A stretch of 64,000 nucleotides of DNA. Source: Gammaproteobacteria bacterium. GTDB taxonomy: Bacteria; Pseudomonadota; Gammaproteobacteria; GCA-001735895. Shown one piece after another: positions 44 through 9,793 of the stretch (positions are counted from its first letter, which is position 1; each line of letters opens with the position of its first letter). Both the position numbers and the translations under genes were made by a program. The notes beneath the pieces were generated by a model that was given only the letters and a program-made list of their open reading frames with translations, searched no databases and was not told the DNA's origin. The stretch is from positions 1 to 64,000 of the forward strand of contig JAHEKJ010000231.1 of the NCBI GenBank assembly GCA_024638385.1. The letters are read 5' to 3'.

Positions 44-1897
44 CTACCCCGGCGCGGCCAGCAGGCCGTGCTCGCGGCCGACCGTGCGCGCCAGTTCGCA
101 CTGCGACGGCGCGAGCCCGGTGCCGTCCGGCCGCGTCGCGCCCTGCATCAGATTGCTCGCGATCTCGACGTGCCCGCCGTCGTTGGCGAGCACATGGAAC
201 AGTTCGTGGGCGAGCGCGACGCCGGGGTCGTCGACGTCGAGCATCAGCCAGACGCTGTCGGCGAGCCACGGCCGGCGCACGGAATTGGCGCGGCCGAAGG
301 CTTCGCCGGTATAGGGCTGAGGGCGGTGCGTGTCGCGCGCGAACACGACCGACGGCCGGCGCCGGTCGAGCGCCGCGAACAGCGTACGCGCGTGACCGAC
401 CGTCAGGTCGCGCAGATAATCCGGGCCCTCGATAACGCTCAGCCGCACCTTACCGGGCACGATGCCGCACTGCGCCAGAATCTCGTAGGCCTGGCGCACG
501 GCGCTTTCGATCTGCGCGCGTTGCCAGCGCGGCTCGAGAACGAAGATATCGAGCGCCAGCAGCAGGCCATCGGCCGCCGGCGGCGCGTCGATTTCGAGCG
601 GCGGCAGAAACGCCTGCTCGAGCCGCGCGCCGGCGCGCGGGTCGGCGATGTAACCGCTGGCGGCCCAGCCGTGCGCGAGCGGATCGGCGTAGCGGCGCCG
701 CAGTTCGGCGATGATGTCGGCGGCATTCCAGTCCGGGTTCGCGGTCTTGAGCCGCGCCGCCAGCGCAAGCGTGCGCGATACCGCGTAGCTCGACCCCGAC
801 GCGAAGGTCCGCTCGCCCGAGTAATCGACTACCCGCAGGTTCTCCGCCGGCACGAGAAAATCGACCGATTCGCGGCCCCAGTTGGTGCGCACCGCCGGAC
901 GCGCGAAATCGTCGGCCGAGGTCACGACCAGCAGGTTGTCGAGTTCGAGCACCGCCGGGTAGACCGGGCGCTCGTCGATGTCCCAGCCGTCGTTGCCGGC
1001 CGACGCGACGAACAGCATGTCCGGGTGTGCGCGCGCGGCCGCGGCGAAGGCTTCCCACTCGGCGGCGCGGTAGCCGCCGAGCGGCAGGCCGACGAGCGCG
1101 ACGCCGTGGCGCGCCGCGTGCTCTACCAGATCTCGCATCCGGCGCATGTCGGGGCGCGGGTAGCGGTACGCCACCAGCTCGACGCCCGGCGCCTCGGCCA
1201 GCAGCAGCGACGCGGTGCGGGTGCCGTGGCGCTGGACGAAGAAGCCGCCACCGAGCAGGTGCGCGTCGTAGGGCAAGGCGTCGAGATCCCAGAAATCGTA
1301 GCCGATCAGCGCGCCGTCGGCGGCGCGCGCGAGCCGCGTATTGATCGCCGGCAGGCGATAGTTGACGCCCGAGTCGACCAGGCCGACGCGCAGCGGCGGA
1401 TTCGCGGGCGGAACTTCCTTGCGCGGGCGCCATTCGAGCGGCGGGTTCAGCCAGTCGGGCCGGCCGCGCGGGCGAAACCCGGAGTCGAGCGTATCGATCG
1501 TGCGCGCGATGCCGTCGGCGCTGTAGTTGATGCGGCGCGCGACCTGCGGCGCGCAATCTGCGTCGAGCGCCACCAGCAATTCGGGCTCGCCCGGTGCGCG
1601 GTACAGCCGGGCGACGAAGCGCAGTGTACGGCCGTCGCGCTCGACGACCTCGAGTTCGAGCGGCGCGCCGGCGTCGTTGCGAGCCCGGTGCAGCGTGCCG
1701 AAATCGACGCCGCGCATGACGATCGGCGAGGTCTCGACCGGGCCGCGAGTATAGCCTTCGGCCAGCGCGCGCGTGTCGGCCCATTGCCGACAGGTCTCGG
1801 CGGCGAAATCGCGCAGGCGCTCGGGCGTCCAGCCCGACGCCGCGACGACCTGCGCCAGCATTGTCAACGCCAGGCCAAATCGGATCGGTTGCAACAT
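44..1897 (-). CDS. S8 family (subtilisin-like) serine peptidase with C-terminal HExxH metallopeptidase-like region
   Basis: DSGVN, HGTRTA, GSSYA triad motifs; C-terminal AHELFHVLANDGGH; signal-like N-terminus MLQPIRFGLALTMLAQVVAA. Confidence 0.85.
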   Translation of the reverse strand: MLQPIRFGLALTMLAQVVAASGWTPERLRDFAAETCRQWADTRALAEGYTRGPVETSPIVMRGVDFGTLHRARNDAGAPLELEVVERDGRTLRFVARLYRAPGEPELLVALDADCAPQVARRINYSADGIARTIDTLDSGFRPRGRPDWLNPPLEWRPRKEVPPANPPLRVGLVDSGVNYRLPAINTRLARAADGALIGYDFWDLDALPYDAHLLGGGFFVQRHGTRTASLLLAEAPGVELVAYRYPRPDMRRMRDLVEHAARHGVALVGLPLGGYRAAEWEAFAAAARAHPDMLFVASAGNDGWDIDERPVYPAVLELDNLLVVTSADDFARPAVRTNWGRESVDFLVPAENLRVVDYSGERTFASGSSYAVSRTLALAARLKTANPDWNAADIIAELRRRYADPLAHGWAASGYIADPRAGARLEQAFLPPLEIDAPPAADGLLLALDIFVLEPRWQRAQIESAVRQAYEILAQCGIVPGKVRLSVIEGPDYLRDLTVGHARTLFAALDRRRPSVVFARDTHRPQPYTGEAFGRANSVRRPWLADSVWLMLDVDDPGVALAHELFHVLANDGGHVEIASNLMQGATRPDGTGLAPSQCELARTVGREHGLLAAPG

Positions 1898-7531: not shown

Positions 7532-9793
7532 ATGTTCGAAACCCTGTTCAAATATCCCGCCCACGAGTTCGCCGCCGGCAAACTCGTGCTCGCGCTGCCG
7601 GCCTGGCAGTTCGCGCTGCTGCCGCTCGTGCTCGCGCTGATCGCGTTCCTCGCGCTCGGCTACGTCGGCCAGCGCGGCGGCAGCCGCCTGCCCGACCGGA
7701 TCGCGATCGCGACGCTGCGCGGCCTGGCGCTCGCGCTCGCGCTGTTGAGCCTGTCACAACCGGCGCTCGAAGTGCGCTCGCCGCTGGCGCAACCTGGCGT
7801 CGTCGGCGTGCTGGTCGACGATTCGCTGAGCATGCGCATCGACGATCGCGGCGACGGCACGCGCGCCGATTTCGTGCGCGCCCAGCTCGACCCCGCCAAC
7901 GGCGAGTTGCTGCGCAACCTCGCGCGCCGCTTCAGCCCGCGGCTGTTCGCCTTCGGCGCCGACACGCGCGAGCTCGACGACGGCTCGCAGCTCGGCTTCG
8001 ACGCCGCCGCGAGCAACCTGCCGGGCGCGCTCGGCGACGCGCTCGCGCGGCTCGCCGGGGAACCGCTGGCGGGCCTGATCGTCATCAGCGACGGCGCGGT
8101 CGATGCGCCGGCGCGACTCGACGAAGCGCTGCTCGAACTGCGCGCGGCCGGCGTGCCGGTGCACACGATCGGCGTCGGCGAGCCGGAGTTCACGCGCGAC
8201 ATCGAGGTCAGCCGCGTCGATCTGCCGCCCCGCGTGCTCGCCGGCAGCCGGATCGTCGCCGAGGTTACGCTCGACCAGCGCGGCTACGACGGACTGCCGC
8301 TCGAGCTCGTCGTCGAGGACGACAGCCGAATCCTGCACAAGCAACCGCTCGTATTGCGCGCCGGCAGCCAGCGGCTGCGCGTGCCGCTCGACACCGACGA
8401 GGCCGGCGCGCGGCGCCTGCGTTTCTCGGTCGCCGTACAGCCCGGCGAGCTGCTCGCCGCCAACAACGCGCGGCAAGCCGTGGTCGGAATCGATTCGCGG
8501 CAGATGCGAATTCTCTATTTCGAAGGCGAACCGCGCTTCGAGATGAAATTCGTGCGCCGCGCGGTCGCCGGCGACGAGCAGCTGCGGCTGCGCGGCCTGA
8601 TCCGTACCGCCGACGCCAAGTACTATCGCGTCGGCATCGAGTCCGAACGCGAGCTGCGGGAAGGATTCCCGTCCACCCGCGACGAGCTCTTCGCCTACGA
8701 CGCGCTGATTCTCGGCAGCGTCGACAGCTCGCTGCTGTCGCGTGAACAGCAGGCGCTGATCGTCGATTTCGTCAGCGAGCGCGGCGGCGGACTGTTGCTG
8801 CTCGGCGGCCGCCGGGCTCTCGCCGAGGGCGGTTACCGTGACTCGATGCTGCACGAAGTCATGCCCGTCGTATTGCCCGAGCTGCCGAGCCCCGAGTTCG
8901 CGCGCCGCGTCAAGGTCGAGCCGACGGCCGCCGGCTGGGCGCACCCGGCGCTGATGCTCGACGCCGACGTCGCCGCGTCGATCGAACGCTGGCGCAGCCT
9001 GCCGGCGCTGACCCTGGTCAACCCGATCGAGGAGATAAAGCCGGGAGCGACCTTGCTGCTCGAGGGCCGCGCCGGCCCGCGCGACGCGCCTTACGTGGTG
9101 CTCGCCGGTCAGCGTTACGGCCGCGGCAAGGTCGCGACTTTCGCGGTGCAAAACAGCTGGCTGTGGCAAATGCATCACACGATCGACGTCGACGACCGCA
9201 GCCACGAGCGCCTCTGGCGGCAACTGTTGCGCTGGCTGGTCGACACCGTGCCGCAACGACTCGAGCTGAGCCTGTCGTCGCAAACGCTGCCCGCCGGCGG
9301 CCGCCTGCAGCTGCGCGCCGAGCTGCTCGACGACGGCGGCGAGACCGGCGCGGCGGCGCCGACCGCCCGCGTCATCGCACCCGACGGCCGCGAACGCGTG
9401 CTGCCGCTCGCGCCGCACCCGCTCGCGCCGCGGGTCTACACGGCGGAACTGGGCGTCGACGAGCCCGGCGATTACGTCGTGCGCGCCGAAATCGAATCCG
9501 AGGCGGCATTCATCGACAGCCGCGAGGCGCGCTTGCACGTGTCGCGGGCGGGCAACGAGTTTCACCGCGCGCAAATGAACCCGGCGCTGTTGCAACGGAT
9601 CGCGGCGGCGACCGGCGGCGAATTTCACCGCGCCGCGGACGCCGGCCGGGTCGTCGCGGCGCTCGGCGCCAGCGAGCGAGGTTCGCACGCGCTCGTGCGT
9701 CTCGAACTGTGGGACATGCCGATTCTGTTCGCGCTGCTGATCGCGTTGCTCGGCGCCGAGTGGGTCTACCGGCGGCTGCGGGGTCTGGCCTGA
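7532..9793 (+). CDS. vWA/BatA-like membrane protein with glutamine amidotransferase-like middle domain
   Basis: TM helices at both ends; VGVLVDDSLSMRID MIDAS-like motif; GGGLLLLGGRRALAEGGY. Confidence 0.8.
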   Translation: MFETLFKYPAHEFAAGKLVLALPAWQFALLPLVLALIAFLALGYVGQRGGSRLPDRIAIATLRGLALALALLSLSQPALEVRSPLAQPGVVGVLVDDSLSMRIDDRGDGTRADFVRAQLDPANGELLRNLARRFSPRLFAFGADTRELDDGSQLGFDAAASNLPGALGDALARLAGEPLAGLIVISDGAVDAPARLDEALLELRAAGVPVHTIGVGEPEFTRDIEVSRVDLPPRVLAGSRIVAEVTLDQRGYDGLPLELVVEDDSRILHKQPLVLRAGSQRLRVPLDTDEAGARRLRFSVAVQPGELLAANNARQAVVGIDSRQMRILYFEGEPRFEMKFVRRAVAGDEQLRLRGLIRTADAKYYRVGIESERELREGFPSTRDELFAYDALILGSVDSSLLSREQQALIVDFVSERGGGLLLLGGRRALAEGGYRDSMLHEVMPVVLPELPSPEFARRVKVEPTAAGWAHPALMLDADVAASIERWRSLPALTLVNPIEEIKPGATLLLEGRAGPRDAPYVVLAGQRYGRGKVATFAVQNSWLWQMHHTIDVDDRSHERLWRQLLRWLVDTVPQRLELSLSSQTLPAGGRLQLRAELLDDGGETGAAAPTARVIAPDGRERVLPLAPHPLAPRVYTAELGVDEPGDYVVRAEIESEAAFIDSREARLHVSRAGNEFHRAQMNPALLQRIAAATGGEFHRAADAGRVVAALGASERGSHALVRLELWDMPILFALLIALLGAEWVYRRLRGLA

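Follow-up and report, generated by a model that had tools for sequence, protein, structure and literature searches.

Single polypeptide chains that carry two different protease chemistries are, to our knowledge, rare outside peptidoglycan hydrolases. Bacillopeptidase F, an S8 enzyme, may possess an M6-like C-terminal region and would then be a precedent for combining an S8 protease with a metallopeptidase-type region. Its additional region would be of the M6 type, unlike the metzincin-like fold family of the C-terminal domain described in this study.

Two groups of proteases are relevant for comparison. Subtilases of MEROPS S8A, including deseasin MCP-01, subtilisin BPN', and PatA/PagA-type enzymes, have an Asp/His/Ser triad, an oxyanion Asn, and a fold in common with the S8 domain investigated here. 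The adamalysin/reprolysin-type metzincins (M12B, comprising ADAM, ADAMTS, and snake venom metalloproteinases, as well as bacterial fragilysin) share their fold, as predicted, with its C-terminal partner. Both place HExxH in an active-site helix, followed by a third His, a conserved Met past it, and a C-terminal helix. The general metzincin rule is HExxHxxG/NxxH/D (PMC11674741).

Here, we describe a gene in the window, which denotes the whole 64,000-nucleotide stretch of DNA that was analyzed. Its product is probably an exported compound endopeptidase, in which an S8 subtilase is joined to a separately folded zinc peptidase of metzincin fold with variant spacing of the third ligand (HExxHx5GxH).

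Results

Positions 44 to 1897 of the window form one open reading frame on the reverse strand, encoding 617 amino acids (stop codon, 44 to 46; coding sequence, 47 to 1897). The upstream ATG at 2110 represents an alternative start for this S8-metzincin-like reading frame. Two observations favor the start at 1897: the N terminus resembles a signal peptide, and homologues begin at about the same place. The fusion protein would be exported to the periplasm or beyond. The opposite strand is likewise open, from 2 to 2023. A gene-prediction artifact in GC-rich DNA was ruled out by the existence of about 35 homologues and by low dN/dS values.

Directly after the stop codon, a 14-bp tandem repeat, AGGTGCGGCCGGCG, occupies positions 1 to 43 of the window. 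This repeat is the probable reason why the assembly stops here, at the end of the contig. The same repeat is present in 5.4 copies at positions 181 to 256 of L062, a locus at the start of another contig in the same genome bin (L002/L062, G000:C8). At positions 3 to 179, immediately before the repeat, this contig harbors a second copy of the final 59 codons, with 94% DNA identity to the window gene over 225 bases and 92% identity at the protein level. The copy is more likely to be a strain variant within the bin than a true paralogue.

The protein is organized, from N to C terminus, into a signal peptide-like leader, a small beta-rich domain, the S8 subtilase, a linker, and a zincin-like domain:

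1835 to 1897, reverse strand: signal-peptide-like N terminus, residues 1 to 21 (MLQPIRFGLALTMLAQVVAAS), as read from sequence; similar hydrophobic leaders in homologues
1478 to 1831, reverse strand: N-terminal helix and antiparallel beta domain, residues 23 to 140; AF2 strands at model residues 31 to 130
647 to 1405, reverse strand: S8 subtilase domain, residues 165 to 417, by Pfam PF00082, PDB phmmer, and Foldseek
560 to 640, reverse strand: variable linker, residues 420 to 446 (PRAGARLEQAFLPPLEIDAPPAADGLL)
47 to 559, reverse strand: C-terminal metzincin-like zincin domain, residues 447 to 617, by AF2, Foldseek, and 36 related domains

The AF2 model of the full-length fusion protein reached a pLDDT of 89 and a pTM of 0.85. 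No Pfam match was obtained for the N-terminal beta domain. The linker between the S8 and C-terminal domains varies from 25 to 42 residues among the fusion relatives and exhibits little conservation.

Residues 171 to 397 matched the Pfam model PF00082 (Peptidase_S8) with an E value of 7.1e-9 and 35.8 bits, exceeding the curated cutoff of 21.8. A phmmer search of the PDB matched the S8 domain to deseasin MCP-01 (E = 1.8e-12). When the S8 part of the full-length model was submitted to Foldseek, the top 50 were all subtilisin-type proteases, with E values down to 1e-15. The catalytic residues follow in the order D, H, S, accompanied by the oxyanion Asn, and all 36 S8 domains spanning these positions retain the full set:

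1373 to 1375, reverse strand: codon of the catalytic Asp, D175 (DSGVN), invariant in alignments
1226 to 1228, reverse strand: codon of the catalytic His, H224 (HGTRTA), invariant
992 to 994, reverse strand: codon of the oxyanion-hole Asn, N302, invariant
788 to 790, reverse strand: codon of the catalytic Ser, S370 (GSSYA), invariant

By profile, catalytic residues, and predicted fold, the S8 half belongs among the ordinary S8 subtilases, with proteolytic activity predicted. In contrast to the S8A enzymes, the fusion protein displays the motif variants HGTRTA and GSSYA and a second protease-like domain, and the place of the propeptide is taken by the N-terminal beta domain or by none. Inhibitor and propeptide models of Pfam had no match in the fusion protein.

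Pfam and NCBIfam scans returned nothing above cutoff for the last about 190 residues of the protein. The reprolysin-like families of Pfam (PF13582, PF13583, and relatives) had no match above cutoff in any of 19 members. An AF2 model of the C-terminal domain, based on a 19-row alignment, achieved a pLDDT of 92.2 and a pTM of 0.90. Its elements are arranged in a metzincin-like order: beta-alpha-beta-(alpha, alpha)-beta-beta-beta-alpha(HExxH)-loop-alpha. The top 50 Foldseek matches in the PDB were exclusively metzincins of the adamalysin, ADAM, ADAMTS, and fragilysin types (E = 1.1e-6 to 5e-5; TM-scores of about 0.55 to 0.66). Independently, a sequence profile search weakly matched the greater part of the domain to a structure of the reprolysin type (E = 0.7). 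The two-subdomain metzincin fold, with its beta sheet, backing and active-site helices, and C-terminal helix, was found in the AF2 model and by Foldseek.

The putative metal site and a pair of cysteines were located as follows:

467 to 469, reverse strand: C477, possible disulfide partner of C600 (window 98 to 100); both Cys in all aligned C-terminal domains
194 to 208, reverse strand: HELFH, with putative Zn ligands H564 and H568 and general base E565; predicted helix 558 to 571; conserved in 36/36 relatives
170 to 172, reverse strand: H576, putative third Zn ligand at +8 from H568; 36/36 relatives and a weak HH alignment
146 to 148, reverse strand: M584 in NLM, putative Met-turn; 36/36 relatives

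The arrangement HEL-x-H-x5-G-x-H-x5-NLM is intact in all 36 related C-terminal domains. H564, H568, and H576, with E565 as the base, are likely to form a zinc site, and a disulfide may link C477 to C600. A further candidate ligand, E532, was rejected; it is invariant in the first 25 rows of the alignment but replaced by V or F in the deeper relatives L046, L049, L050, and L051. We also considered whether the subtilase might simply have an unrelated extension at its C terminus in which HExxH arose by chance. The lack of a Pfam or NCBIfam match would be in keeping with such an origin, which is nevertheless refuted by the 36/36 conservation and is further opposed by the metzincin-only fold matches, leaving it very improbable.

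It should be noted that the spacing departs from the metzincin rule, with HExxHx5GxH in 36/36 domains. Counting from the second His, A, T, S, V, M, or L occupies position +3, and the invariant Gly and His follow at +6 and +8, respectively; in M12B enzymes and fragilysin, the Gly is at +3 and the third His at +6. The domain is also smaller than these metzincins (about 165 to 190 residues), has no Pfam reprolysin match, and is fused behind a subtilase. HHalign against canonical bacterial reprolysins placed H576 on the third His via a two-residue gap, although this alignment was weak (Prob 5.9; single-pair P of 0.0064). The C-terminal domain thus looks like a metzincin in its predicted fold, yet it fails the strict motif. 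Since the motif and all Pfam reprolysin models failed, we did not file it as a metzincin clan member on motif grounds. The motif failure, the TM-scores of about 0.55 to 0.66, and the weak HHalign result count against reading it as a metzincin zinc peptidase.

Canonical bacterial Reprolysin_3 and Reprolysin_4 domains (PF13582/PF13583), which are of metzincin type, occur in the same organisms. The aligned proteins of this kind carry HExxHxxGxxH, are encoded by separate open reading frames, and have weak profile-profile similarity to the C-terminal domain. A separate Reprolysin_3/4 protein is encoded in the window's own genome (L071, G000:C216:55814-56425) and is possibly a second metzincin of this organism.

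The initial annotation had combined intact S8 motifs with a metallopeptidase-like C terminus. DSGVN (D175), HGTRTA (H224), and GSSYA (S370) are all present, with PF00082 above its cutoff, and the quoted C-terminal text was exact (HELFH, a downstream His that is H576, the NLM Met that is M584, and the QC tail). Structure comparison with AF2 and Foldseek bears out the metallopeptidase-like assignment in the form of a metzincin fold. The proposed check on homologues also turned out in its favor, HExxH and the third His being invariant (36/36). The annotation did not mention the +8 spacing of the third His, the missing match to any curated family, or the relatives that have S8 or the metallo domain alone.

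Several sets of genomes were surveyed for relatives. Scanning contigs of the genomes yielded 23 loci, which overlap in part with the matches from a search of relatives in 17 of 115 genomes (the genome itself, 15 of the same genus, and one of another family). The C-terminal domain profile matched 10 of 369 genomes of the class, and in a phylum sample of 399 genomes, the window's own genome alone was matched, and phylum-wide spread was rejected. A mobile-element origin was rejected, as C-terminal domain relatives were absent from viral contigs and plasmids gave generic S8 matches only. After removal of duplicates, the alignment comprised 36 C-terminal and 37 S8 domains.

Four arrangements were observed. 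The N-terminal beta domain, S8, and the C-terminal domain are combined in the window gene and most relatives. Five relatives have S8 and the C-terminal domain without the N-terminal domain (the Granulosicoccus-type L013, L015, and L017, together with L043 and L044). S8 is found without the C-terminal domain in SAR116 (L021 to L023) and Litorivicinus (L024), and HExxH is absent from all four of these proteins. Finally, the C-terminal domain stands alone behind its own leader in two genomes (L047 and L048), with no S8-domain relative detected within the 10 kb and 14 kb, respectively, fetched around them. Because these proteins have their own leader and no S8 relative detected nearby, the C-terminal domain can be regarded as an autonomous unit. 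The S8 and C-terminal domain trees have the same main clades, which indicates that its two parts have been passed on together for most of the history sampled. The S8-metallopeptidase-like fusion in one polypeptide, which had been flagged as unusual, is real, conserved, and modular among relatives, and the recommended search for the same two-domain architecture recovered it from several groups of Gammaproteobacteria, in which the pairing is kept.

Across nine pairs, dN/dS ranged from 0.08 to 0.18 for S8, from 0.11 to 0.25 for the C-terminal domain, and from 0.12 to 0.38 for the N-terminal domain. Judged by these ratios, S8 and the C-terminal domain are both under purifying selection and maintained. 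These data bear on the possibility that S8 is the sole working protease and that the metzincin fold serves in metal sensing or binding, substrate docking, or stabilization, its HExxH being kept for metal binding and not for catalysis. The departure from the metzincin rule, the somewhat higher dN/dS of the C-terminal domain than of S8 in most pairs, and the S8-only relatives that do without it all point in this direction. Pure metal binding, however, would not need E565, the catalytic-base position, which is invariant in 36/36 domains, and the C-terminal domain is also found by itself, behind a leader of its own. We consider a purely noncatalytic role unlikely.

Discussion

In the compound endopeptidase that we favor, zinc would be bound by H564, H568, and H576, and E565 would act as the base. 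Both units would be catalytic, providing two independent active sites, and might together attack a shared set of protein substrates, in nutrition or in turnover of the envelope. It is conjectured that the S8 unit could additionally cut the linker, freeing or activating the metallo unit.

Taken further, this conjecture becomes a self-maturing enzyme, in which the S8 unit stands where a metzincin prodomain would be and cleaves the linker to activate or release the C-terminal domain. The order of S8, variable linker, and metallo unit would suit such a scheme, and cytophagalysin, a metzincin made as a zymogen that is activatable by the serine protease trypsin, offers a precedent (PMC11674741). Self-maturation is nonetheless pure inference. 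C-terminal domain-only relatives lack a detected S8 relative nearby, and the full-length pTM of 0.85 is more suggestive of fixed packing than of release, so that this scheme appears quite improbable. A broader proposal, in which the C-terminal domain represents a new metzincin family whose third ligand is displaced (HExxHx5GxH) and its fusion to a subtilase yields a dual-mechanism protease, with the metallo unit activated or fed in cis by the serine unit, is possible but doubtful.

Searches of the open-access literature turned up no S8-metzincin fusion. The conserved chain presents a natural test for selection in favor of coupling two cleavage specificities or of cis-activation. Its C-terminal domain, invisible to Pfam and NCBIfam, extends the zinc-site spacing known in the metzincin-like fold and could define a new family. 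Recognizing it would likewise amend the bare "S8 family peptidase" annotation that current profiles would assign to such genes.

Operon context was rejected as a clue to function, as neighbors are clade specific, share no pathway, and give no hint of a substrate. They include a LysE-type exporter, PhyH, HlyU, a FecCD/ABC transporter, and purB-cupin-GNAT, depending on the clade; only PhyH, HlyU, and FecCD were Pfam scanned, and several other names were read from sequence. In one clade (L011, L012, L016, L019, and L020), the gene is followed directly, at about 7800 to 9730, by genes for a FecCD-type metal or siderophore permease, identified by Pfam on L011, and for an ABC ATPase, read from sequence. 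A similar pair adjoins the gene in the opposite orientation in L009 (1521 to 3310); the pair is not general. A small HlyU-family gene is located immediately upstream in the same orientation in L008 (1462 to 1770), L015 (3096 to 3401), and L017 (5576 to 5884), with PF10115 confirmed for L008. In the window itself, the divergent neighbor at 2040 to 2906 on the forward strand encodes a member of the phytanoyl-CoA dioxygenase family (PF05721; E = 1.3e-32).
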